A stretch of DNA of 64,000 nucleotides from the NCBI RefSeq assembly GCF_000482245.1, contig NZ_AWNH01000021.1, positions 1 to 64,000 on the forward strand. Direction: 5' to 3'. The stretch is from Leptolyngbya sp. Heron Island J (lineage in GTDB: Bacteria; Cyanobacteriota; Cyanobacteriia; Phormidesmidales; Phormidesmidaceae). The stretch's first letter is position 1. Each line of letters opens with the position of its first letter. The notes under the pieces are model-generated. The model did not search any database. It was not told where the DNA came from and saw only the letters and a program-made list of their open reading frames with translations. Positions 10,573 to 37,325 of this stretch are shown one piece after another. The translations under genes and the position numbers were made by a program.

Positions 10573-10590
10573 CTCACAAGTTCCTCAACT
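10573..10590 (+). promoter_or_regulatory. 11-bp-period direct-repeat site (flavodoxin-like gene)
   Basis: CTCACAAGTTC followed by CTCAACT on the plus strand, with half-sites exactly 11 bp apart. It lies about 130 nt before the flavodoxin-like gene. It is one of the best copies of the shared motif and the only clear one on the plus strand. Confidence 0.45.
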
Positions 10591-10720
10591 TTTTTGCCCA
10601 AACTTGAAAGCAAGCAATAGGATACATCTTGGTCGCCAATGATGACGGCTCATAATCCTATTGGGGGCAACGGTGACCGAAGACGAGTAGACACTTTCTG
10701 CAATCTGTGGGGGGTTTCCC

Positions 10721-13113: not shown

Positions 13114-13180
13114 GGGACGCTTACCCGAAATCAGCGCCTTCTTTCAAGTTGGCAGGCTCCTCATGTTTAAATTTGCACGC

Positions 13181-13209
13181 AAAATATGAGCAACTTGTGA
13201 GGTTATGAG
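13181..13209 (-). promoter_or_regulatory. 11-bp-period direct-repeat site (SDR gene)
   Basis: The minus strand reads CTCATAAC, then CTCACAAGTTG, then CTCATAT. The last two half-sites are 11 bp apart and the first adds a third copy 9 bp earlier. The nearest minus-strand gene is the SDR, about 180 nt downstream. Confidence 0.4.
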
Positions 13210-23408: not shown

Positions 23409-24044
23409 CTAACCACTACACCAGGCCTCATATTCTCGATCTTTAAAGGCTTCTGGATATTCCTCATCGTAATATTGCTCAGATGCAGTTTGTTCCAGAG
23501 ATTCAGCCCGTTGACGGGCGGCTTCTGCCTGGAGTGCATCAACCGCTAACCAAGCATTGAGACAGGCCCTTGACGCTGGACCTTTCTCTTGGCATACATG
23601 ACGCGCTTTCTCTGAGAGATCACGAATTTGTTCCGCTAGCAGGGTTTCTTGAGGTTGTTCAATCGCGTTGCTACGTTCCAAAATATCGGTAACAGATACA
23701 ATGCCCAACAGCTCTGATTGAATCACAGGCGCACTATGTAAATGGGCCTGAGTTAACAACCGTGCTGCATATTCCACAGCTAAATCAGGATTTAACACAA
23801 TGCAGGGTTTAGTCATTAATTCATAAACTCGCACCCAGCGAGCGTCCCGTCCAAAGGCAATTACTTTACCGACAATATCGTCGACCGTAATCACACCATA
23901 AGCATCCAGGTCGTGGCTACGTTCGACAATCAAAGCTTGCACACCCCGCTGACTCATCAGCTTAGCCGCCTCTGCGGCTGTTGCCGAGTTACGGATAGTA
24001 ACAACTTCAGGCGTCATAATATCGGCTACTCGCATCATCACCAT
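23409..24044 (-). CDS. CBS-CP12 fusion protein
   Basis: The start is placed at ATG 24044, behind GGAG and just clear of the upstream gene. The product of 211 residues has two CBS motifs (about 1-125). A CP12-like C-terminus follows, containing the Cys pair CQEKGPASRAC and the AWLAVDALQAEAARQR core. CP12 normally holds GAPDH and phosphoribulokinase together in the dark through two disulfides. Here the second Cys pair is largely lost: YYDEEYPEAFKDREYEAWC has only one Cys. CBS-CP12 fusions are known only from cyanobacteria and respond to AMP and redox state. The gene probably shares a transcript with the secreted-protein gene just upstream. It lies downstream of hypC on the same strand. Confidence 0.88.
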   Translation of the reverse strand: MVMMRVADIMTPEVVTIRNSATAAEAAKLMSQRGVQALIVERSHDLDAYGVITVDDIVGKVIAFGRDARWVRVYELMTKPCIVLNPDLAVEYAARLLTQAHLHSAPVIQSELLGIVSVTDILERSNAIEQPQETLLAEQIRDLSEKARHVCQEKGPASRACLNAWLAVDALQAEAARQRAESLEQTASEQYYDEEYPEAFKDREYEAWCSG

Positions 24045-24058
24045 GATTACTCTCTCCA

Positions 24059-24610
24059 TTACTCCAACGACCAATCACAAAGCTGCATGGGTGAGGTCAT
24101 TCGCGGACGGTCATACAGATACATAGATTGCATATTTAGCCTGGCTGTTTGGAAAATAATCCAGCGCACCTGTTCTTCAGCAACCCCCTCGCTCCGCACT
24201 AACTTCCCCTGGCTCAGAGATAAACGCTCTTCTGGATGATCCCAAATAAACGTTTCTTGCGGAATATCCTGCCAGGCATTCCCTGCCCAGCTAATCACTA
24301 ACCCCTGCCCCTCAAGCCAGTTCTCAGACAGTTGGCCGCGCAAACAAATAAAAGAGCCACTATGGGGATAACCATAGTAGCCCTCAAGCGTTGTTCCTTG
24401 TTTAAGGATATTGAGACATGCCCCCGAACCATCATGCCAATCTTGAGGAGCTGGCTCAGTACACAGCTGATAACCACCATCGTCAAGAGGGGCCAACAGC
24501 GTCTCCATGGTGGAAACCTGTGACTCAGCAGCAATCGGAGAAAGTAAGGCTAAGCCTAGCAGCCAGCTCAAGCTGATTAACTTAACTGGATCATGCCAGG
24601 TCATAGACAT
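24059..24610 (-). CDS. secreted protein of unknown function
   Basis: A 183-residue protein with an N-terminal signal peptide (hydrophobic LISLSWLLGLALLS, cleavage near residue 29). The mature part has four Cys and a segment GTTLEGYYGYPHSGSFICLRGQL. I do not recognise a domain. It lies 14 nt upstream of CBS-CP12 in the same direction, so the two are likely co-transcribed. A regulatory repeat is present just upstream. Confidence 0.6.
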   Translation of the reverse strand: MSMTWHDPVKLISLSWLLGLALLSPIAAESQVSTMETLLAPLDDGGYQLCTEPAPQDWHDGSGACLNILKQGTTLEGYYGYPHSGSFICLRGQLSENWLEGQGLVISWAGNAWQDIPQETFIWDHPEERLSLSQGKLVRSEGVAEEQVRWIIFQTARLNMQSMYLYDRPRMTSPMQLCDWSLE

Positions 24611-24645
24611 GCCTCCAACTCCTCTAGTAGTACCTTAGATAAAAA

Positions 24646-24664
24646 CCTTGGTGAACTTGTGAGG
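24646..24664 (-). promoter_or_regulatory. direct-repeat site before the secreted-protein/CBS-CP12 pair
   Basis: Minus strand CTCACAAGTTC then ACCAAGG. The first 11 bases are identical to the site at 10573; the second half-site is weaker. It is 36-54 nt upstream of the gene start at 24610. Confidence 0.35.
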
Positions 24665-24742: not shown

Positions 24743-24973
24743 TCATGAGTGGGCTCCAATCTGTTTGAGGTAGTTTAAAGTTTGTTCAGCTTCTTGTAGA
24801 TCCAGCTTGCTAATGGCAAATCCTACATGCACTATCACATAGTCATCGACCTGCGCTTCAGGCACATAGGCCAAACTCACTTCTTTGATGACACCGCCAA
24901 AGCTGACTCGGCCCATTCGAGTGAGATTCTCGCCTTCGATGCTAATAATTTTTCCGGGTACGGCTAGACACAT
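24743..24973 (-). CDS. hypC: hydrogenase maturation chaperone HypC
   Basis: A 76-residue protein beginning MCLAVPGKI, the HypC signature, where Cys2 binds the Fe(CN)2CO unit together with HypD. GRVSFGGVIKEVSL and VHVGFAISKLD complete the family pattern. It carries the iron-cyanide group to the hydrogenase large subunit HoxH. It follows hypF by 17 nt. Its partners HypD and HypE are not in this window. Confidence 0.93.
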   Translation of the reverse strand: MCLAVPGKIISIEGENLTRMGRVSFGGVIKEVSLAYVPEAQVDDYVIVHVGFAISKLDLQEAEQTLNYLKQIGAHS

Positions 24974-24990: not shown

Positions 24991-27306
24991 TTAGGCAATC
25001 TCAGCCAGGTGACGTAATGCACCGATCACCTGCCCAACGGCAATTCCGCCATCATTGGGCGGCACTCGCTGATGCCAGTAGGGGGTGAATCCGGCAAGCT
25101 CTAGATGCTGAATTGTCTGCTCGCTGAGAATTTTGTTTTGAAAGCAACCACCGGTCAGTAGGATATTGATATTGTTTGTGAGTTTTGCGATCGCACCCAC
25201 AATTTCCACCAACGTCCGATGAAACTTAGCAGCCACCACCGCCGTTGCCACCCCCTGACCATGGTCATGAACAATCTCTCGCACCATTGGTCGCCAGTCG
25301 ATAATGTGGGGTACAGTCTCTGAAAGGCCAAAGGGATAAACTCCTTGGACCGTTGTTTTAGCAGCTTCAAATTCCAGCGCCAACGCCGCCTGGCCTTCAA
25401 AACTAACAATCTGGTGTAAACCCAGAAGCGCCGCCACACCATCAAACAATCGTCCCATGCTGGAGGTCATGGGCGTATTAATCTTTTGGGCCAGCATTTG
25501 CTGTAAAACAATCCGTTGAGCCGGTGAAAATTCCCGCACGGGAGCTAAGTCATCTCGCTCAAACACCCCATCGCCATCACAGCGATACAGTAAACCTAGG
25601 GCAGAGCGTCGAGGTTCTCGGCTACACCTATCTCCCCCCAGTAGAGGAAAGGGCAACAGATGGGCAACTCGCTTAAACCCAGACGCTGTTATCTGGAGAA
25701 ATTCGCCACCCCAAACAGTTTGATCAAGGCCATACCCTGTGCCATCCCAGGCAATGCCCAACAGGGGAGCCTCCAGGGCATGCTCGGCCATACCTGCTAG
25801 AACATGGGCATAGTGATGCTGCACAGCAATCAAGGGCACCCCCCATTGCTCAGCCAGGGTGTGGGCTAATTGTGTAGAGCCGTAGTCTGGGTGCAGGTCA
25901 CAGGCAATAGCCGTCGGCTGACAGGTGTAGAGAGCCAGCAGGTCAGTCACAGTGTGTTGCAACCGTTTCAGAGTCAGTGGGGTATCTAAATCACCAATGT
26001 ACTGACTCAGCACAATGTGATCGCCCAAAGATAGGGCAATTGTGTTCTTGAGGTGGGCTCCCAGGGCTAAAATTTGAGCGTCAGACAGGTCAGGAGAAGA
26101 TAGTGGAATTACCTGGGGAGCATAGCCACGGGCATGGCGCAGTACCTGGGGTTTGCCCTGGATAAGTTGGACAACGGAGTCATCTACTGGGCGTTGGATG
26201 GGACGATTGTGGGTTAAGAAACCGTCTGCGATCGCAGCTAATCTCCCACTGGCCTGCTCATCGAGAGCAATGGGCTCACCCGATAAATTACCGCTAGTCG
26301 TCACCAGAGGAGCACCATATTGCCGCAGCAAAACATGGTGTAAAGGTGTGGTGGGCAGCATCACCCCCAGATACGGTCCTAACCTGGACTGATATGGGGC
26401 AACACCAGGGGCTAATTCTAAACTATCAATGCGTCGCGGCAACAATACTATTGGAGCCTGAGCGGAGGTTAACACCGCTGCAGCAGCCTCAGATACATCG
26501 CCATAGGAGCGCACCTGCTCCAAAGTTGAACACATCAGCGCCAGGGGTTTGTCAGGGCGGCCCTTGCCTTGGCGCAAACGCTGCACAGCCCCAGAGCTTT
26601 GAGCATTGACCAGCAGCTGGAAGCCCCCTAACCCCTTGAGCGCCACAATATCCCCCTGCCGCAGCCTGGCCAGGGCCAGCTTGAGCGGATCACCTGATTG
26701 TTGTTGTCCCTCTACCCAAAACTCTAAGTGCGGTCCACAGACAGCACAGGCATTAGGCTGAGCATGAAAACGGCGATGGGAAGGCTGGGTATATTCCGCC
26801 TGACAATCTGCACACAGGACAAAGTCTGCCATTGTTGTGTGACAGCGATCATAGGGTAAGGCCCGGATAATACTAAACCGGGGACCACAGTGGGTGCAGT
26901 TGGTAAACAGATAGTGATAACGGCGATTATCAGGGGAAAGAACATCCTGTAAGCACTCAGCACAGGTGGCCAGGTCGGGCAAAATATGAGCCTTAGCCCC
27001 ATGACCAACGGTCTCAGAAGGCCAGATTTGAAACTCCTTTAGGCCCTGCGGCGGCAGGTTTTGCCGGGCTAGCGCTTGAATCACTGCATGGGGTGGCAAA
27101 TCCTGTTGAAGTCTCTGAGAAAACTCCTGTAGTACCTTGTCAGGCCCCTCTACTTCAATCACAACTCCCTGGGCAGTATTCTTGACACCGCCTGCCAACC
27201 CCAATTCTGTTGCCAACTGATACACAAACGGACGAAAGCCCACCCCCTGCACAACGCCTCGTACAGTCAGACGATTTCGACATAGAGGAGAGATTACCGG
27301 CATCAT
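24991..27306 (-). CDS. hypF: carbamoyltransferase HypF
   Basis: A 771-residue protein of normal length. It has an acylphosphatase domain (about 1-95, with VVQGVGFRPFV) and four CxxC zinc ligand pairs at 115-118, 137-140, 165-168 and 187-190. A YrdC/Sua5-like domain follows (about 205-380), then a Kae1-like carbamoyltransferase domain with HHYAHVLAGMAEH and GGCFQN. HypF activates carbamoyl phosphate and passes the carbamoyl group to HypE, which makes the cyanide ligand of the [NiFe] site. It lies between the adenosine-specific kinase and hypC. Confidence 0.95.
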   Translation of the reverse strand: MMPVISPLCRNRLTVRGVVQGVGFRPFVYQLATELGLAGGVKNTAQGVVIEVEGPDKVLQEFSQRLQQDLPPHAVIQALARQNLPPQGLKEFQIWPSETVGHGAKAHILPDLATCAECLQDVLSPDNRRYHYLFTNCTHCGPRFSIIRALPYDRCHTTMADFVLCADCQAEYTQPSHRRFHAQPNACAVCGPHLEFWVEGQQQSGDPLKLALARLRQGDIVALKGLGGFQLLVNAQSSGAVQRLRQGKGRPDKPLALMCSTLEQVRSYGDVSEAAAAVLTSAQAPIVLLPRRIDSLELAPGVAPYQSRLGPYLGVMLPTTPLHHVLLRQYGAPLVTTSGNLSGEPIALDEQASGRLAAIADGFLTHNRPIQRPVDDSVVQLIQGKPQVLRHARGYAPQVIPLSSPDLSDAQILALGAHLKNTIALSLGDHIVLSQYIGDLDTPLTLKRLQHTVTDLLALYTCQPTAIACDLHPDYGSTQLAHTLAEQWGVPLIAVQHHYAHVLAGMAEHALEAPLLGIAWDGTGYGLDQTVWGGEFLQITASGFKRVAHLLPFPLLGGDRCSREPRRSALGLLYRCDGDGVFERDDLAPVREFSPAQRIVLQQMLAQKINTPMTSSMGRLFDGVAALLGLHQIVSFEGQAALALEFEAAKTTVQGVYPFGLSETVPHIIDWRPMVREIVHDHGQGVATAVVAAKFHRTLVEIVGAIAKLTNNINILLTGGCFQNKILSEQTIQHLELAGFTPYWHQRVPPNDGGIAVGQVIGALRHLAEIA

Positions 27307-27409: not shown

Positions 27410-27892
27410 TCAAAGTTTGTAACCAATTAGTCGCAGGAATTGTTGACGCTCGGCCACATCCTGCAGCCCCTCTACGCCCTTGGGGGGAAACCCATCAATG
27501 ACACCCAAAATGCCACGACCCTGGTCACTGTTGGCAATCACCACCTGGACCGGATTGGCGGTGGCGCAATAAATGCGACAGACTTCTGGACACTGTTTAA
27601 TGGCATTGAGCACATTGACCGGAAATCCTTGCTGCATCATAATCACAAAACTATGCCCCGCACCAACCGCCTTAGCATTTTCAATCGCGGCTGTTTGTAG
27701 GGGCTCATCATTCCCAGCTGCACGAATCAAACAAGGACCAGAGGCTTCACAAAATGCCAGCCCAAACTTGACCTGGGCAGAGGCATTGACCATTACTTCG
27801 TAGAGATCTTCTACGGTTTTAATAAAATGGCTCTGCCCCAAAATCAAGTTGCTATCGCCAGGCAATGTTAAATCAACCAGCTGTAGTTCCAT
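27410..27892 (-). CDS. adenosine-specific kinase family protein
   Basis: The start is ATG 27892, with GAGG 8 nt upstream. The frame can be extended to 27979, but that would overlap the psbA gene. The 160-residue protein matches the adenosine-specific kinase family (PF04008): MELQLVDL start, GLAFCEASG, GNDEPLQ, GAGHSFVIMM and GRGILGVIDG. The archaeal prototype phosphorylates adenosine to AMP; the role in cyanobacteria is unproven. It begins 10 nt after the psbA stop and is therefore almost certainly in the same transcript. A hydrogenase role is not known for the family. Confidence 0.82.
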   Translation of the reverse strand: MELQLVDLTLPGDSNLILGQSHFIKTVEDLYEVMVNASAQVKFGLAFCEASGPCLIRAAGNDEPLQTAAIENAKAVGAGHSFVIMMQQGFPVNVLNAIKQCPEVCRIYCATANPVQVVIANSDQGRGILGVIDGFPPKGVEGLQDVAERQQFLRLIGYKL

Positions 27893-27902
27893 CGAAAATA
27901 CC

Positions 27903-28994
27903 TCATACACCAGGTACGACTTCAGGCAACGGCATGATGGCATCACCACTCGCCAAAACCAATGGGAAATGGTGTGCATTGGGAGAGTGCATCACTTGAA
28001 TTCCCAAAGTAGCCCGGTTAATAATATCAGCGTTGGTAGCAATCACTCGTCCCTGACTATCGAGAATCGATTGGTTAAAGTTAAATCCATTGAGGTTAAA
28101 GGCCATGGTGGCTATCCCCAAGGCAGCAAACCAAATACCAATGGTCGGGAGGGCTGCCATCATAAAGTGAAATGCGCGATGATTTTGACTGCCAAACCAG
28201 GGAATTAGCAGTCGCCCTAGGAAACCATAGTGGCCAGCCAGATAGTTGTAAGTAGGCTGTTGTTGACCAAATTTATAACCGAGGGCGGCAGATTCAGTTT
28301 CTGATGTGGTGCGAATCAGACTAGAGGTGACTAGCGAACCATGTAGGGCAGCCAACAGGGCTCCACCAAATATGCCAGCCACACCTAACATATGCAGCGG
28401 GTGCATCAAAATGTTGTGATCGGCTTGGAAGGCCAACATAAAGTGGAATGTGCCGGAAATACCTAAGGGTAAGCCTTCAGAAAAACTGCCTTGACCAATC
28501 GGATAGATCAACAGCACACTGGTGGCGGCACTGACAGGAGCAGAGAAGGCGATCGCAATCCAGGGCCGAGTGCCGATCCGATATCCCAATTCCCACTGTC
28601 GCCCCAAATAGCACCAGATACCAATTAAAAAGTGAAACACAATTAGCTGGTAAGGACCACCGTTATACAACCATTCAGCAACAGATGTGGCCTGCCATAA
28701 CGGATAGAAGTGGAGGCCAATAGCTGCTGATGTTGGCACAACCGCCGCAGAAATAATATTGTTACCGGCCAGCAGAGAGCCAAATATCGGTTCTCGAATG
28801 CCATCGATATCCACCGGGGGAGCCGCCACAAAGGCCAGGACAAAGCAGATGATCGCCACCAGTAAAGTGGGGATCATTAACACACCAAACCAGCCAATAT
28901 AAATACGATTTTGGGTACTCGTAATCCAGTCGTTAAATCGCTCCCACGGACTTTGGGGATATAAGCGGGAACGACCATGGAGTAGGGCGCTCAT
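27903..28994 (-). CDS. psbA: photosystem II D1 variant ('rogue/sentinel' type) inside the hydrogenase region
   Basis: The start is ATG 28994 with AGGAGG 5 nt upstream, giving 363 residues; a TTG seven codons earlier has no such signal. The protein aligns with D1 over its whole length. In standard D1 numbering it keeps Tyr161 (TyrZ), His190, His198, His215, His272, His332, His337 and Ala344. It changes cluster ligands or second-sphere residues: D170E (SFSEG), E189D (QADHN), E333S, D342V and E329Q. It also changes Y147F, S264G at the QB site and W317N, and has one extra residue after Phe255. A C-terminal extension of about 15 residues remains. Loss of Glu333 and Asp342 should prevent a normal Mn4CaO5 cluster. 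The gene lies between hypB and an adenosine-specific kinase gene. Confidence 0.93.
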
Positions 28995-29055
28995 ACAATC
29001 CTCCTGCTCAAGCAAACAAGCATTAGAAGTATTCGATTATGAGTCTATAAAACGA

Positions 29056-29073
29056 CTTTGAGGAAGTTATGAC
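29056..29073 (-). promoter_or_regulatory. 11-bp-period direct-repeat site (psbA variant)
   Basis: Minus strand GTCATAACTTC then CTCAAAG, half-sites 11 bp apart, 62-79 nt upstream of the psbA start and within the 156-base gap after hypB. It suggests that the D1 variant has its own promoter within the hydrogenase region. Confidence 0.45.
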
Positions 29074-29150: not shown

Positions 29151-29882
29151 TTACACCAATACCTTCGCCACATGCTGGGAAAGAGCCTGGTTTAGATAGG
29201 CATAAAAACTGGTCAACCCTTCACCAGTTGTTGCCGACAGCTCAAAAATTATGGCCTGAGGTGCGATTAAACGCAAATAGCTTACTGCTTCTTCGCGATT
29301 AAACCCAACTACATCAGCAATATCAGTTTTAGTAATCACAACAACATGGGCAGACTTAAACATGGTGGGATACTTCAGCGGCTTGTCTTCTCCTTCAGTC
29401 ACAGACATCAGCACGATCCGTAAATCTTCCCCCAGGTCGTAGACCGCAGGACAGATCAAATTACCGACATTTTCAATAATCAGTAAATTAAGGTGATCCA
29501 AGTCCAGCTGTTGCGCTGCCTTACCAACACTTTCAGCCTCCAGATGACAGAGATTGCCGGTATTGATCTGGATCACTGGCTGCTCTGTTTGACGCAGTCT
29601 TTCAGCATCCCGATCGGTGGCCAGGTCGCCCACAATCACACCGGGTCGTACTGTTTTCTGGGGGCGATATAGGGGATCAGCGCCAGCAATTAAATCACAG
29701 TCATGCAGCACCCGCTGGATCAGCGTTGTTTTGCCAGCTCCTGGTGATGACAAGATGTTCAAAACCAACAGATGCTGAAACAAAACGCGATTATGTTCCG
29801 CATAGTGATCGTTTTTGTCTAACACATTCTGATGTAGAGATAACGTCTGTCGTGGGCTTTGACAGCCACAATGTCCACACAT
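29151..29882 (-). CDS. hypB: nickel-insertion GTPase HypB
   Basis: From ATG 29882 (AGGAGG upstream; a TTG two codons earlier is also possible) the protein has 243 residues. It begins with the nickel site CGHCGC, has the P-loop SPGAGKTT at 46-53, and the G3/G4 motifs ENVGN and TKTD. HypB with HypA loads nickel into HoxH. The His-rich stretch seen in many HypB proteins is absent. hypA ends 13 nt upstream. Confidence 0.94.
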
Positions 29883-29895
29883 AGCCAACTACCTC

Positions 29896-30237
29896 CTAGG
29901 AAATCTCTAAGGATGCCAGCTCCAAAGCTCTCCCCTGGCGAATGTCCGCACTCAACTGATGACAATGCGGACATTCATATACCCAGCCTGAGGGTTGAAA
30001 CAGATGTTGGCATGACGAGCAGTAGCACCTCACGGGTACTGATATGGTCTCCAACTCAGCCTTTTCCGCTAGCGTACCGCTACTCACCACCGTAAAGGCA
30101 AATGCTAGCGCCTCTGGATCTACGCCTGACAACTCGCCTACATGGAGCTGGAGACGATGAATTTGCCGAGCCCCCTGAGCATGAGCATGATCTAAGGCTA
30201 CGGCCAAAGCAGCCTGCATTAGACCGATTTCATGCAT
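29896..30237 (-). CDS. hypA: nickel chaperone HypA
   Basis: A 113-residue protein starting MHEIGL, where His2 and Glu3 bind nickel. Two CxxC pairs (CSSC and CPHC) form the zinc site. It delivers nickel to HoxH with HypB. Its start overlaps the end of the upstream protease gene by 8 bases, which indicates coupled translation. Confidence 0.94.
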   Translation of the reverse strand: MHEIGLMQAALAVALDHAHAQGARQIHRLQLHVGELSGVDPEALAFAFTVVSSGTLAEKAELETISVPVRCYCSSCQHLFQPSGWVYECPHCHQLSADIRQGRALELASLEIS

Positions 30238-30748
30238 AGATGGGGCTGCGATAGGTCACCAAGAATTGCTCAATCGACCTCAAGGCGCGATCGCATCCCT
30301 GTCGTGCAAACGACGAAAGTTCGCCTCTCAAATCACAGGATTCAACCGGAATTTGCAACAACCAGGCTTGAGGATGACGGTTATAAAGACGCTGGGTGAG
30401 ATTAAGCAGAGCCAGCGGATCATAGCTATGGGCAGCAAATGCCATAGAAGACGGCTGCTCATCATAGATCGTTATCGGGTCGATCTGTACTGTCCGAATA
30501 GCCTTCTGACCACAGGCATCAACAAACATGACATAGTTTGCCTTTGCTAATTCGGCTGTCAGTTCCGGGGTGAGTTGGGAAACCGCCAGAGATTTAACTG
30601 CAGGCAAGTTCCAATCGGCAACAACCATGGCTACCCAAGGGCCAACGGCGTCATCACCACAGAGTTCATTACCATAACCAATCACTAAAAAATCATATTC
30701 AAGCACCGTTGATGTCTGAGTCGATGGAAGCATAGGACCTGTCCCCAT
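30230..30748 (-). CDS. hoxW: hydrogenase maturation endopeptidase HoxW
   Basis: A 172-residue peptidase of the HybD/HycI fold. The segment GYGNELCGDDAVG holds the first acidic nickel ligand, and VDACG and AAHS follow as expected for the second acidic and His positions. It removes the C-terminal tail of HoxH after nickel insertion. ATG 30748 is used; ATG 30733 is possible. It lies just downstream of hoxH and overlaps hypA. A second member of the family is encoded at 34356-34853. Confidence 0.88.
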   Translation of the reverse strand: MGTGPMLPSTQTSTVLEYDFLVIGYGNELCGDDAVGPWVAMVVADWNLPAVKSLAVSQLTPELTAELAKANYVMFVDACGQKAIRTVQIDPITIYDEQPSSMAFAAHSYDPLALLNLTQRLYNRHPQAWLLQIPVESCDLRGELSSFARQGCDRALRSIEQFLVTYRSPIYA

Positions 30749-30780
30749 ATAAGCTGCTCTACCCAGATACTACTCAAACG

Positions 30781-30799
30781 ATATGAGGATTTTATGAGG
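30781..30799 (-). promoter_or_regulatory. 11-bp-period direct-repeat site (hoxW-hypA-hypB)
   Basis: Minus strand CTCATAAAATC then CTCATAT, two near-identical half-sites exactly 11 bp apart. It sits in the 53-base gap between hoxH and hoxW, about 33-51 nt upstream of hoxW. Confidence 0.5.
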
Positions 30800-30801
30800 T
30801 A

Positions 30802-32238
30802 TTAACGACAACACTCATCCAGGACTTGACCATCGGCACTAATCAACTGTATGTGCAACGGCATCATGCCAGCCCTATGGGTAGAACAGCTAAGACAGGG
30901 GTCAAACGCGCGAATTCCGGCTTCAATGCGATTCAACATGGGCTCTGGAATATTTGGACCGTGGATGTAGTGACGCGCAATCTGGGCAACAGTACGATTC
31001 ATGGCCAGATTGTTCTGTCCCGTAGCAATAATCAGGTTGACATAGGTGAGTAAACCCGTCTTATCAATTTTGTAATGGTGAAGGAGAGTGCCCCTCGGGG
31101 CTTCCCCCACCCCCACCGCTTCAAGTTGATTGACATCAGCCCTGGCTCTAAGATGATCGCTCTGTAGATCTGGATCATCCAGGGCCATCTCAATCCGTTC
31201 AATACAGGTGAGAATTTCAATCAGTCGCGCATAGTGATAGAAAAAGGAACTGTTGCTCATCTGCCGGAAGTTGGGCAGTTCAGCTTCAGCCAGGGGAGTG
31301 CCGATGCGATCGCAAATATTCAATCTTGCCAACGGACCTACCCGATAAAGCCCATTCTCTAAACGGCAGTGCTGCGTCTGATCAGGATAGCCCAATGGCT
31401 TATAGTAAGGTGACTTTAGGTAGGAATCTGGCTGAACCGCCTCGCCAATAAAGTCCTGGTAATTAGCAGGATTTAGCCGATCGGCAATAATATTGCCACC
31501 GCTATCGACCACTCGCAAACAGCCATCATAATGCTCCCAGGTGCCGTCAGGACCGACTAAGCCTATAAACAAACTAGAAAAGTTACCAAAGATATGGGCT
31601 TCTTCTTGCAAGCCTGCCAGCAGTTGTTTAAATAAGGTAAGCGTTTCTAAAATCGTTTTCTTAGCCTCAGGCAGTTGTTGACGAATCTGCTCTCGTCCAA
31701 CCAGTGACAGACTACTCCTGACCCCGCCAGGCACAGCCCAAGCCGGATGAATTTTGCGTCCTCCCAATTGTTCAATCACGGCTTGACCAAACTGACGTAG
31801 TCGAATGCCGCCTCGAGCCAGCTCCGGTTCAGCCGCCATTACGCCAAACACATTCCGCTGGCTCGGATCGCTTTCCCAGCCCAGCAACAGATCTGGACTA
31901 CTCAGGTGAAAAAAGCTCAAGGCATGGGACTGAATAATCTGGGCTAAATTCATTAACCGTCGTAGCTTCTCCGCCGCCGGGGGAATTTGTACGGCCAAGA
32001 GACGATCACCGGCTTTAACCGATGCCAATAGATGGCTAATTGGACAAATTCCACAGATGCGGGCTGTAATACCCGGCATTTCCCAAAAGGGACGGCCCTC
32101 ACAAAATTTCTCAAACCCGCGAAACTCAGTCACATGAAACCGAGCATCGGCTACTTCTCCCTGGTCGTCCAGATAAATCGAGATTTTGGCATGGCCCTCA
32201 ATTCGGGTAACCGGATTAATGATAATTCGTTTATTCAC
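30802..32238 (-). CDS. hoxH: [NiFe]-hydrogenase large subunit HoxH
   Basis: A 478-residue catalytic subunit with a GTG start. [10 protein letters not shown] at 60-69 gives Cys62 and Cys65, and DPCLSCSTH at 446-454 gives Cys448 and Cys451; these four Cys hold the Ni-Fe centre. About 24 residues follow His454 and form the tail removed by the HoxW peptidase. The enzyme is the hydrogenase half of the soluble bidirectional Hox complex, which exchanges electrons between H2/H+ and NAD(P)H or ferredoxin. No intervening genes separate it from hoxY except a 138-base gap. Confidence 0.96.
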
Positions 32239-32376: not shown

Positions 32377-32925
32377 TTAGCCAAATCTAATCAGTTCAGG
32401 GCCTGTCAGATGAGGTTGTTTCCCTTGTAGTAAGGGTTCTAAAACCGCTCGAATACGATCAGCATTGGGAGGACAGCCAGGCAAATAACAATCTACCGGC
32501 ACTACCTGGTGAACGGGCATTACCTGGTTTAGCAAGGCAGGGACCAGCTCTCCTTGAGGTATCTGAGGCTGAACATCAACGTCTAAATAAGCACGATTGA
32601 GAACAGAGTCAGCGGACTCGGATGCACCCAATACGTTACGCATCGCCGTGACATTGCCTGTAATCGCACAGTCACCAAAGGAGATGATGAATTTGGTGCG
32701 ATCGCGAACTTGATAAATCATGTTTAGATGGTCTTGATTTGCGATCGCACCCTCCACTAACGCCACATCCACACCCTCGGGATAGGTCTTAATATTTGCC
32801 AACGGGCTGTAGACCAGATCCACCTGGCTGGCAAGATCAAACAGCCACTCATCCAGGTCAAGAAACGACATATGACAGCCGGAACATCCCCCCAACCAAA
32901 CTGTTGCCAACCTTATTTTTGTCAT
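32377..32925 (-). CDS. hoxY: [NiFe]-hydrogenase small subunit HoxY
   Basis: A 182-residue subunit starting behind AAGGAAG. The proximal [4Fe-4S] cluster ligands are in GGCSGCHMSF (Cys14 and Cys17), GDCAITGN and PGCPPNADRI. It transfers electrons from the HoxH active site to HoxU. It begins 12 nt after hoxU and lies upstream of hoxH, the standard order. Confidence 0.95.
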   Translation of the reverse strand: MTKIRLATVWLGGCSGCHMSFLDLDEWLFDLASQVDLVYSPLANIKTYPEGVDVALVEGAIANQDHLNMIYQVRDRTKFIISFGDCAITGNVTAMRNVLGASESADSVLNRAYLDVDVQPQIPQGELVPALLNQVMPVHQVVPVDCYLPGCPPNADRIRAVLEPLLQGKQPHLTGPELIRFG

Positions 32926-32937
32926 TGTCTATCTTCC

Positions 32938-33654
32938 TTACCTGACCCACTGTTGCTGCTGACGAGCGGTTGTAATAAAGCTAAGCTGTTCTCGATCATG
33001 TTGCATTTCTCCAACTGTTGAGCCCCGATGAAATAAGGCTCCTGTCGGACAAGCGTTTACACACTTACCACAGGACGTACAGCTACTAGCCTCACCCCAA
33101 GGTTGGTTTAAATCGCTAATCACATGGGAGGTATGACCTCGCCCAGCCATATCCCACGTATGGGCACCTTCCACCTGATCACAGACTCGGATGCAGCGTG
33201 TACAGAGCACACAGCGATTGTGATCCAGCCCAAACCGGGCGTGGGAAATATCCACATCACGGTTTGGAAACTGATAGGTGAGACCAACATGATCAATCCC
33301 CATTGCCACCGCTAGATTCTGCAATTCACAATGGCCATTAGAAACACATACAGCACAGACATGATTGCCCTCAGCCATGAGTAGCTCCACGATAGTGCGG
33401 CGATAGTGTTGCAATCGCTCAGAATTTGTTTGCACCACCATCCCTTCTTGCACTTTTGTTACACAGGCAGGCAATAGCTTAGCAGCTCCCTCCACCTCCA
33501 CTAAACAAAGACGGCAGGCACCGACAGCAGATAAGCCATCCAAATAACAAAGGGTAGGAATCGCGATCGCTGCATTGCTAGCCGCGTCCAGGATAGTTTC
33601 TCCCTCACGGGCACTAATCAGCTGCTGATCAATGGTTAGGGTTTTGACAGACAT
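32938..33654 (-). CDS. hoxU: diaphorase subunit HoxU
   Basis: A 238-residue iron-sulfur protein of the NuoG N-terminal type. It has a plant-type [2Fe-2S] domain with [10 protein letters not shown], then [16 protein letters not shown]. Two C-terminal 4Fe-4S motifs follow: [13 protein letters not shown] and [14 protein letters not shown]. It wires HoxF to HoxY. The 700-base gap upstream, instead of the usual close packing, contains repeats and a possible inserted element. Confidence 0.95.
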
Positions 33655-34355: not shown

Positions 34356-34853
34356 TTAGACGGCTGAGTTCATTAATGAAGTAATTGTCTGTAATGCTTG
34401 GGTTAACCCCTTCTCTGCTAGATCTGATAAGGAATGGCCAATGGCAAAATCCTGAGCCGGAACTTCAATCAACCAAGCTTTTGGAAAATGGCCATAGACA
34501 GATTGGGTCAGTGCTAACAATGAACAAGGACTGCAGGAATGGCCAAAGCCAGGTAATGTAGTGCCTGTAGTTTCTGTGCCGCAGGCATTTAGCGGTTTAA
34601 CTTGCACCGTGTCGGTAGTGTTGAATTTACAGGCATCCACAAAAATGGCGACATCTGCCCTGGCCAGTTTACTAGAGAGTTCTGGAGTAAGATACTTAAC
34701 TGAATAAGCGTCAAGGTTAGGCGTTTTTAATTCCTGAAGTTGAGCAACTATTTTTTGGCCAATAGCATCATCACCCTTGTTGGGATTACCGTATCCGACC
34801 ACCAAGAAGGTAGGGCTAGCTTCTGAGGAAAAGCTGTGGGTAGCATTTTCCAT
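34356..34853 (-). CDS. second hydrogenase maturation endopeptidase (HoxW-like)
   Basis: A 165-residue protein with GAGG 8 nt before the ATG. GYGNPNKGDDAIG at 20-32 gives the acidic nickel ligand, VDACK the second acidic position, and GFGHSCSP the His. It is a paralogue of the HoxW at 30230-30748. It lies between hoxF and hoxU, where many cyanobacteria have an unrelated small gene. It may process HoxH redundantly or a second hydrogenase encoded elsewhere. Confidence 0.82.
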   Translation of the reverse strand: MENATHSFSSEASPTFLVVGYGNPNKGDDAIGQKIVAQLQELKTPNLDAYSVKYLTPELSSKLARADVAIFVDACKFNTTDTVQVKPLNACGTETTGTTLPGFGHSCSPCSLLALTQSVYGHFPKAWLIEVPAQDFAIGHSLSDLAEKGLTQALQTITSLMNSAV

Positions 34854-35125: not shown

Positions 35126-36727
35126 TTACCCCTCCAATGCCTCCAAATACTCCTCCCGAAAATAGCGCAGCGTACTCAAAACCGAATTCGGAGCAGCTTG
35201 CCCCAACCCACACAAACTGGTGTGTTTGACCACATCACATAGCATCTCCAGCTGCGCTAAATCGGCGGCTGTTGCCCGGTGTTCTTTGAACTTAGTTAAC
35301 AGCTGGTAGAGTTGCACGGTCCCTGCTCGACAGGGGATACACTTGCCACAGGACTCATCCATACAAAACTGCATAAAAAACTGGGCCACATCCACCATAT
35401 GGGTATGCTCATCCATCACAATCATGCCGCCTGAGCCCATAATCGATCCCAGTTTTTTGAGCGATTCAAAATCTACAGAGGTGTCAAATGCAGATGCTGG
35501 GATACAGCCCCCTGAAGGACCACCCGTTTGTACAGCCTTAATCTGAGCCCCATTGGGGGCACCCTGCCCCATCGTTTCCACAATCTCTCCTAGGGAAATT
35601 CCCATGGGTACTTCGATTAATCCGGCATTTTGTACCTTGCCCGTGAGAGAGAAAACTTTAGTGCCTTTGCTCTGTTCGGTACCAATGGAGGCAAACCAAT
35701 CAGCTCCATTGCGGATAATAGGAGCAATATTGGCAAAGGTTTCTACGTTGTTGATTAATGTGGGACAGCCCCACAGTCCTGACTCAGCCGGATAGGGAGG
35801 ACGGGGTCTAGGAATCCCGCGTTTGCCTTCAATGGAGGCCATTAAGGCGGTTTCTTCACCGCAGACAAAGGCTCCGGCTCCGATGCGTAAATCTACACGA
35901 AAATCAAAAGGAGAGTCAAAAATTTGACTGCCAAGCAAACCATGGCGTTTGGCCTGGCGGATGGCAGTTTGCAAATGGTTAATGGCCAGGGGATACTCTC
36001 CCCGCACGTAGATATAGCCCTGATTGGCTCCGACAGCATAGGCTGCGATCGCAAGTCCTTCCAATACCCGATGGGGATCGCTCTCCAATACACTGCGATC
36101 CATATAAGCCCCCGGATCGCCCTCATCCGCGTTACACACCACGTACTTCTGCCCCGGTGGCATTTTCGCCACTGTGGCCCACTTTAATCCAGTCGGATAG
36201 CCTGCCCCACCTCGCCCCCGTAGACCACTGCGGGTAATCTCATCGACTACCATTTCCGGCGACATCTCGCGTAAACAGTGATGCAGTGCTTTGTAGCCTG
36301 ATGCCGCAATATAGTCCTCAATCTTTTCTGGATCAATACGACCGCTATTTTCCAACACAATCCGCTGCTGCCGAGTAAAAAATGGATTATCCATCGGCTG
36401 GGTCTTTAGGGCAGCAATATCTGGATGAGACGATTGCGCCAGCACCGCCACTACAGCAGCAGACTGTTCTGGTGTCACCTGCCCATAGAGCACGTCAGCA
36501 GCACCGTCAGAGTCGACTCGTACCAACGGCCCCTGACTGCATAACCCCATACAGCCCACCCCCGACACTTGTACCTGGTCTGTTAACCCCTGAGCAACTA
36601 CCGCAGCTTCCAGCTGTTCTCTAACCGCCGCACTATTAGCCGAAAGACAGCCACCAACAGTACAGCAACAAATGCGATACTTTTTTTGAACAGCTACAGA
36701 CGATCGCTGTAATTCATCAAAAGTCAT
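35126..36727 (-). CDS. hoxF: diaphorase subunit HoxF
   Basis: The start is ATG 36727, which overlaps the hoxE stop as ATGA. The product of 533 residues has an N-terminal thioredoxin-like [2Fe-2S] domain (Cys-rich ICCCTVGGC and GVGCMGLC). The NuoF-like part has the NADH/FMN-binding [10 protein letters not shown] and [12 protein letters not shown]. The C-terminal 4Fe-4S motif is [12 protein letters not shown] with a later CGLGQ. It oxidises or reduces NAD(P)H for the hydrogenase module. Confidence 0.96.
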
Positions 36728-37233
36728 GGCCTGGATGCAGATAGACAACTCTTCAGACGCTGCGTCACGCGCTCTAACGTTTGATGCCCCTCTAGTTGCT
36801 CATCAAACACCACAGTCGGAGCAATACCGCAGGCCCCCAAACAACGTGCTGTCATCAGCGATAGCTGACCGTCAGCTGTAGTCTCACCCGCTTTAATCCC
36901 CGTTGCATTTTCCAAACAGCTGAGCAACTGCGCCGCCTGTTTCACATAACAAGCTGTTCCCAAACAGACAACACAGCTATGTATCCCTTTGGGGGCCAAT
37001 GAGAAGAAGTGATAAAAGGTTGCCACCCCATAGACCCGACTGGGTGGCAACTTCAGCCGTTGGGCAATATGCAATAACAAGTTTGTGTCTAGATAGCCAA
37101 ATAGTTTCTGGGCCCGATGCAACACCTCAATCAGCGCGTCAGGGCGATACTGATGTTGTTTCATAGTTGCCTCTAACAGGCGGAGTCGCCTGTCATTAGC
37201 TGGGGAAGTCTGAACCGTAGCCCTAGAAGTCAT
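36724..37233 (-). CDS. hoxE: diaphorase subunit HoxE
   Basis: A 169-residue NuoE-like protein with a [2Fe-2S] cluster bound by [10 protein letters not shown] and CLGACGIAP. It caps the HoxFU diaphorase. It is first in the minus-strand hox series and is divergent from the alpha/beta-hydrolase gene, sharing a 184-base promoter region. Confidence 0.95.
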
Positions 37234-37289: not shown

Positions 37290-37307
37290 TATTGGTATAA
37301 ACCAATA
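37290..37307. promoter_or_regulatory. palindrome in the hoxE promoter region
   Basis: TATTGGT-ATAA-ACCAATA: two 7-bp arms around a 4-base centre, 57 bases upstream of hoxE. It is next to the direct-repeat site at 37309-37325 and could bind a second regulator. I do not recognise it as a LexA or NtcA site. Confidence 0.4.
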
Positions 37308-37308
37308 G

Positions 37309-37325
37309 TTTGAGGAATTTATGAG
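37309..37325 (-). promoter_or_regulatory. 11-bp-period direct-repeat site (hoxE)
   Basis: Minus strand CTCATAAATTC then CTCAAA, half-sites 11 bp apart, about 76-92 nt upstream of hoxE. Nearly identical to the site before hoxW-hypA (30781-30799). Confidence 0.5.

Follow-up and report, generated by a model that had tools for sequence, protein, structure and literature searches.

A rogue D1 gene within the hox-hyp operon of Leptolyngbya sp. Heron Island J and the upstream element it shares with hydrogenase genes

Introduction

Why should a gene for the D1 protein of photosystem II lie among the genes of a bidirectional hydrogenase? The question is raised by a locus of the cyanobacterium Leptolyngbya sp. 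Heron Island J, analyzed here within a stretch of 64,000 nucleotides (positions 1 to 64,000 of contig NZ_AWNH01000021.1, assembly GCF_000482245.1) that we call the window. Seven ligands of the manganese cluster are supplied by D1 (PMC4773611), and the psbA gene in question, which stands within a run of hox and hyp genes, encodes a D1 altered at several of them.

An Intact Gene for a Rogue D1

The gene is located as follows.

27903..28994, minus strand: rogue (group 2) psbA, encoding a D1 without E333 and D342, recognized from its open reading frame, a profile match, alignment and trees

The reading frame runs uninterrupted from an ATG at 28994 to a stop at 27903 and encodes 363 amino acids; the plus frame across the same positions contains stops, so the coding strand is the minus strand. 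In a profile search the product matched TIGR01151 (psbA) with 601 bits against a cut-off of 596. Substitutions were read by aligning the protein to solved structures and to the D1 proteins encoded elsewhere in its genome. In D1 numbering they include D170E, E189D, E333S, D342V and S264G, exactly the five listed in a preliminary description made from the sequence alone, which had named no strand; TyrZ and the chlorophyll and iron histidines, which that description had given as kept, are likewise intact (Y161, H118, H190, H198, H215, H272), as are H332, H337 and A344. Three manganese ligands are therefore unchanged (H332, H337, A344), two are replaced acid for acid (D170E, E189D), and two are gone (E333S, D342V). 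Compared with the canonical copies of its own genome, the protein also carries N87A, Y147F, N181H, E329Q, R334P and N338H, and the C-terminal LDLA reads LVLA with A344 retained; loss of the LDLA processing motif is described as a feature of rogue or sentinel D1 (PMC9640542). Comparison with the gene of genome G182 indicates purifying selection (dN/dS 0.056), dS being saturated in the comparison with that of G308. The window gene is thus an intact, selected gene for a group 2 (rogue/sentinel) D1.

Phylogeny agrees with the likeness to the rogue class proposed earlier. One side of a starred branch (100) holds 88 rogue rows including the window gene, apart from normal D1, and the window D1 groups with the G308 and G182 genes of its own family (starred, 96); the rogue set is defined here by residues and tree, published group 2 reference sequences such as Cyanothece PsbA4 standing outside the rows of the tree. 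A second tree, to which ChlF-like and far-red D1 rows were added and which is unrooted, the intended D2 outgroup not having been found, resolves ChlF-like, standard and rogue D1 as distinct sets, with the window D1 in the rogue set (21 rows; starred, 98). ChlF or super-rogue D1 (group 1) is also a D1 paralogue without manganese ligands (PMC4773611), but the ChlF-like rows, so named from their pairing with an 80% D1, form a separate starred branch (100) that does not include the window D1. Standard D1 (groups 3 and 4) has the complete set of manganese ligands, which the window D1, having lost E333 and D342, does not. The microaerobic D1' of group 3 resembles it as a low-oxygen isoform but keeps all of these ligands (PMC4773611). 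Closest in character is the rogue or sentinel D1 typified by PsbA4 of Cyanothece ATCC 51142 (group 2), in which E333 and D342 are likewise absent and TyrZ and the pigment ligands are kept.

The preliminary description had set this protein apart from a full loss of ligands by its acids at positions 170 and 189, a distinction that does not hold. Among 87 distinct rogue rows of the alignment, position 170 is acidic in 85 (Asp in 47, Glu in 38) and position 189 in 61 (Asp in 51, Glu in 10), and group 2 D1 is published as bearing either E170 or D170 (PMC4773611). Since both acids are common in the class, the window D1 is a typical rogue D1 and not a milder form, and D170E with E189D is ruled out as the mark of an unusual one. 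E333 is found in none of the 87 rows and D342 in none (one row being gapped there), against 21 of 21 canonical rows for each, and position 264 is Ala in 60 rogue rows and Gly in 23. The protein class is already known; what is new is the genomic context.

Two peculiarities were seen elsewhere in the class. Six rogue psbA genes of family f5 (L054, L055, L058, L059, L062, L065) have Ser for His at position 198, followed by Trp (HPxSWLGV); residue 198 binds the PD1 chlorophyll, and the special pair of a reaction centre built with these proteins is perhaps altered. At position 272, where His binds the non-haem iron, six of the 87 rogue rows have Tyr and one has Asn, which could reflect an alignment shift.

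The same genome (G000) contains a second rogue D1 gene (G000:C14:58697-59728), six full-length canonical-type D1 genes and fragments at contig ends. The second rogue gene (L007/L074) belongs to another subclade, shared with genomes G162 and G347 of the same genus, many members of which adjoin genes for rhodanese, ArsR, a PetC-type Rieske protein and an SQR-like flavoprotein (a weak match, under the NCBIfam cut-off), and also arsenic genes. The neighbour analysis drew on 88 rogue loci, L134 being a duplicate of L082, and six canonical loci were left out of it. Proximity of psbA variants of groups 2 and 3 to sqr has been published (PMC5061849), and such sulfide islands, with sqr, rhodanese and petC beside Acaryochloris psbA1 (PMC5295598), resemble the window locus in placing a rogue psbA among genes that serve an anaerobic mode; the window psbA differs from them in subclade and in neighbours. 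Within G000:C14:47646-59728 (L004, L007, L074), a divergent standard D1 lies about 10 kb from the second rogue D1, which is itself near the SQR-like gene. A canonical-type D1 on another contig (L001, G000:C53:11169-12083) has about five extra residues, an altered QB loop and Glu at the S264 position.

A Rogue psbA Inside an Older Operon

The genes surrounding psbA, from the last to the first in the direction of transcription, are these.

23409..24074, minus strand: CBS-CP12 fusion protein, also present in f32 hox clusters
24059..24610, minus strand: protein without a Pfam match; a homologue follows psbA-adoK in G182
24743..24973, minus strand: hypC-like reading frame of 76 amino acids, named from position and start motif
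24991..27306, minus strand: hypF (TIGR00143, 796 bits)
27410..27892, minus strand: adoK, adenosine-specific kinase family (PF04008, 252 bits), an older member of the hyp operon
29151..29888, minus strand: hypB (TIGR00073, 253 bits)
29896..30237, minus strand: hypA (TIGR00100, 118 bits)
30230..30748, minus strand: hoxW-type hydrogenase maturation protease (TIGR00072, 61.5 bits; subtype from position)
30802..32238, minus strand: hoxH, large subunit (NCBIfam models below cut-offs; named from order and similarity)
32377..32925, minus strand: hoxY (PF01058; named from order)
32938..33654, minus strand: hoxU (PF13510 and others; named from order)
34356..34853, minus strand: second hydrogenase-protease-like gene (TIGR00072, 56.8 bits)
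35126..36748, minus strand: hoxF (NuoF-family matches below cut-off; named from order)
36724..37233, minus strand: hoxE (PF01257; named from order)

The order on the minus strand is thus hoxE, hoxF, the protease-like gene, hoxU, hoxY, hoxH, hoxW, hypA, hypB, rogue psbA, adoK, hypF and hypC, the hox subunits being named by order and similarity, with several curated cut-offs not reached. All the neighbours named in the preliminary description were found: hypB upstream, the kinase gene (PF04008) downstream, and hypF and the hypC-like frame in line behind it. A gap of 156 bp separates hypB from psbA, 10 bp separate psbA from adoK, and 103 bp adoK from hypF. In the hypB-psbA gap no consensus sigma-70 promoter or terminator was found on the minus strand; the hits there lie on the plus strand, at the level of shuffled sequence. 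A search of the locus for the inverted repeats of a mobile element found none.

The rogue psbA is not a conserved member of this operon. The order hoxH-hoxW-hypA-hypB-adoK-hypF occurs without it in G162, G347, G303 and G028, the first two being of the same genus as the window genome, with hoxH 90% and 89% identical. The contiguous hypB-adoK-hypF of these relatives identifies adoK as an older hyp-operon gene and means that the rogue psbA stands inside an older operon. The psbA-adoK pair recurs in G308 and G182 with no hyp genes in the stretch examined; either the pair arose in such an operon and later parted from it, or it moved from one lineage to another.

Two of the accompanying genes deserve mention in their own right. 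A gene of the PF04008 family regularly adjoins hypB or hypF (window 27410-27892; L213, L214, L215, L217, L223). The CBS-CP12 fusion (window 23409-24074; L085, L086, L093, L111, L121, L125, L128, L129) is found in or near hox clusters in two families, often behind the CTCA element described below, and in L093 beside a rogue psbA without hox; a link to Calvin-cycle control is possible.

Recurrent Linkage of Rogue psbA and hox

The hox and hyp proteins of the window served as queries against the regions flanking rogue psbA genes. This check of genomic neighbours, which the preliminary description had called for, revealed nine further loci in which hox adjoins a rogue psbA, all in family f32. In two of them (G381, G475) psbA lies immediately 5' of hoxE on the same strand, and in the other seven (G401, G582, G485, G500, G497, G496, G505) it lies between a protease gene and hoxH, on the strand opposite to hox.

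Of the 37 f32 genomes that have both genes, 10, representing 5 of 19 genera, carry a rogue psbA no more than 20 kb from hoxH; in nine of the ten the distance is within 7 kb, and in G444 it is 19 kb. None of the 143 other D1 copies in the same f32 genomes (fragments included, six ChlF-like copies left out) is within 20 kb of hoxH, the closest being at about 31 kb (Fisher p 4.6e-8, relatedness of the genomes ignored). Among named canonical psbA loci, one of 65 (L197) has hox within about 10 kb. The two genes also tend to occur together: in f32, hoxH is present in 37 of 51 genomes with a rogue psbA versus 63 of 166 without, and in a sample of the class in 20 of 32 rogue genomes versus 106 of 356 others, kinship being ignored in both comparisons. 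Of the 20 genomes of the class sample that have both genes, two (the window genome and G381) have them linked, and in the window's own family the window alone has a rogue psbA near hox. The class search scored at most five candidates in each of 388 genomes and may miss rogue genes, cut-offs of 1e-174 in two D1 searches may miss divergent ones, and contig ends hide linkage.

The hox-linked rogue genes do not form one lineage. A single clade was rejected by the AU test (p 1.7e-9), and, given the starred branches of the tree, the hox-linked label must have changed at least three times. Our literature search, with most subscription journals outside its scope, found no report of hox-psbA linkage or of the element described next; the word "psbA" is absent from the text of PMC3858816.

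A Shared Upstream Element

Rogue psbA genes share with hox genes an element in which two CTCA units stand 11 bp apart and which reads CTCAYAANTTCCTCAAANTNTT, with a TA step behind it. It was first met, post hoc, when a blastn comparison of hypB-adoK gaps matched a short piece of the window to G303; a MAFFT alignment of the upstream regions of four rogue psbA genes was mostly unalignable. Copies within the operon region are as follows.

24642..24663, minus strand: weak copy before 24059-24610 and the CBS-CP12 gene, 3 mismatches
29052..29073, minus strand: copy upstream of the rogue psbA, beginning 79 bp before the ATG, 2 mismatches to the consensus
30777..30798, minus strand: weaker copy before hoxW, 2-3 mismatches depending on the version of the consensus
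37304..37325, minus strand: copy before hoxE, 0 mismatches

The psbA of the window thus probably has a putative promoter element of its own. The hypB-adoK gap of G303 and G028 also holds the element, which was not found in that gap of the same-genus G162 and G347. Elsewhere in the window, copies were observed at 10573-10594 (plus strand), before a gene of the FMN-reductase family (10721), and at 13180-13201 (minus strand), before an SDR-like gene (12998); in L257 a gene like the former likewise lies behind an element site.

Allowing at most 4 mismatches in 500-bp upstream regions, we found the element before 31 of 75 rogue psbA genes versus 0 of 84 canonical ones, one canonical upstream reaching 4 mismatches on the other strand; many of the 31 come from close relatives, those of the window, G308, G182 and G389 belonging to another family, and the 500-bp limit misses the G381 site, 519 bp upstream. 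The other 44 rogue upstreams are without it, among them that of the second, sulfide-island rogue psbA of the window genome (7 mismatches at best).

When whole regions were scored at no more than 2 mismatches, the element was present in 9 of 9 hox-linked regions, in 12 of 20 unlinked hox regions (counting L229, from G444, where hoxH is 19 kb from the rogue psbA) and in 22 of 40 other f32 rogue regions. The corresponding figures are 1 of 11 for SQR-type regions, 0 of 6 for f5 and 0 of 64 for canonical regions, a control from which L197, with hox nearby, was left out; a single site with 3 mismatches was seen in each of two canonical loci. The tie between element, hox and rogue psbA therefore extends to loci where the genes are unlinked.

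In whole genomes, sites for the element outnumber those for the reversed pattern, 35 to 0 in the window genome, 10 to 1 in G505 and 52 to 0 in G381, where at least 16 of the 52, ending in CTCAAACTTTC, appear to belong to a single repeat family. Six of the ten sites in G505 fall between 4.089 and 4.115 Mb, around hox and the rogue psbA. In G381 an interspersed sequence that includes the element-like string CTCACAAATTCCTCAAACTTTC was also seen, in at least 16 copies.

Genes Behind the Element

In the window genome, 31 of 35 sites are followed by a same-strand reading frame of at least 70 amino acids that starts within 500 bp. A Pfam scan was made of 20 hand-chosen frames behind the element, 11 from the window genome, 7 from G381 and 2 from G505, and three of them matched no family. 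Those of the window genome encode PEP synthase, Usp, HSP20, chaperonin, DJ-1, CBS, PRC, phosphoribosyltransferase and FMN reductase proteins; those of G381 encode pyruvate formate-lyase, a radical-SAM protein, PEP synthase, Usp, HSP20, S30AE and HlyD; and G505 contributes a Usp protein. The set resembles an anaerobic or dormancy regulon. Direct repeats of 11 bp suit response regulators of the OmpR type, and the element may be the site of a single low-oxygen regulator.

An Anoxia Programme and Its Alternatives

Rogue psbA4 and psbA1 are reported to rise in dark or microoxic conditions (PMC4320622, PMC5295598), and expression of rogue D1 under dark or microoxic conditions is recorded elsewhere (PMC9640542). 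We think it rather probable, judging from the genomes, that the window psbA belongs to an anoxia or fermentation regulon that makes hydrogenase while replacing the water-splitting D1. In darkness or anoxia, a candidate regulator acting on the element would raise hydrogenase, fermentation and stress proteins together with the rogue D1. The rogue D1 would enter and fill photosystem II, where it could not hold a normal Mn4CaO5 cluster, and its purpose may be protective: when light returned, no oxygen would be made where hydrogenase and other oxygen-sensitive enzymes work.

The preliminary description had envisaged one low-oxygen transcript set. As a single programme this fits the co-directional hox-hyp run, the recurrent linkage and the tie to the element where the genes are unlinked; as a single transcript it is not general. 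Seven f32 loci have psbA on the strand opposite to hox, and the window psbA probably has its own promoter element, so that co-regulation is better supported than co-transcription.

Which enzyme is protected bears on the first alternative, the classical sentinel role, in which photosystem II is silenced mainly for nitrogenase and the place in a hydrogenase operon is secondary. The window genome has nifD (G000:C73), and the nifD cut-off is passed by 33 of the 41 rogue genomes scanned, so the oxygen-sensitive client may be nitrogenase; rogue D1 expression has been reported to accompany nitrogen fixation (PMC4320622, PMC4477158, PMC11304991). The remaining eight fall below the cut-off, however, six of them without any match, and both the linkage and the shared element speak for hox and fermentation genes; we regard nitrogenase as the main client as unlikely.

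Similarly improbable, in our estimate, is a D1 at work in anoxic photochemistry with sulfide, Mn(II) or a reduced carrier as an alternative donor, feeding plastoquinone and hydrogenase. Such a role would suit a protein that retains TyrZ, H190, acidic residues at 170 and 189 and all the histidines that bind pigment and iron; Mn(II) oxidation is possible in D170E mutants (PMC4773611), sulfide oxidation has been proposed for rogue PsbA (PMC4477158), and one rogue subclade sits in sulfide-type islands. Yet the QB residue S264 is changed, the hox-linked type has no known donor, and the window gene is outside a sulfide island. That psbA landed in the operon by chance, its linkage being without function, is very unlikely: rogue D1 genes are said to transfer often (PMC11304991) and most are not near hox, but the linkage recurs with different gene orders against none of the other D1 copies, a single clade is rejected, the element is shared, the gene is under purifying selection, and it lies on the same strand as adoK at a 10-bp spacing.

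Taking the anoxia regulon a step further, we see about an even chance that the rogue D1 belongs to the core of a cyanobacterial anoxia or dormancy regulon not described before, which is marked by the two CTCA units and jointly controls stress proteins and fermentation enzymes along with the bidirectional hydrogenase, and that one cell may hold two rogue D1s, for hydrogen and for sulfide modes. The absence of the element from the sulfide-island copy of the same genome distinguishes the two genes.

Significance

The published ties of rogue D1, in the sources cited here, are to night, nitrogen fixation and sqr; the window gene stands instead inside a hox-hyp operon, behind an element that it shares with hox. 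Arguments about the role of rogue D1 have so far drawn on its expression at night and on nitrogen fixation, and linkage to hox together with a promoter-like element offers a testable alternative, in which the same control that switches photosystem II to an oxygen-silent state also makes hydrogenase and fermentation enzymes. If this is true, the element would provide a cis-acting sequence through which a cyanobacterial low-oxygen regulator could be found, and these organisms would provide a natural model for light-driven hydrogen production without oxygen.
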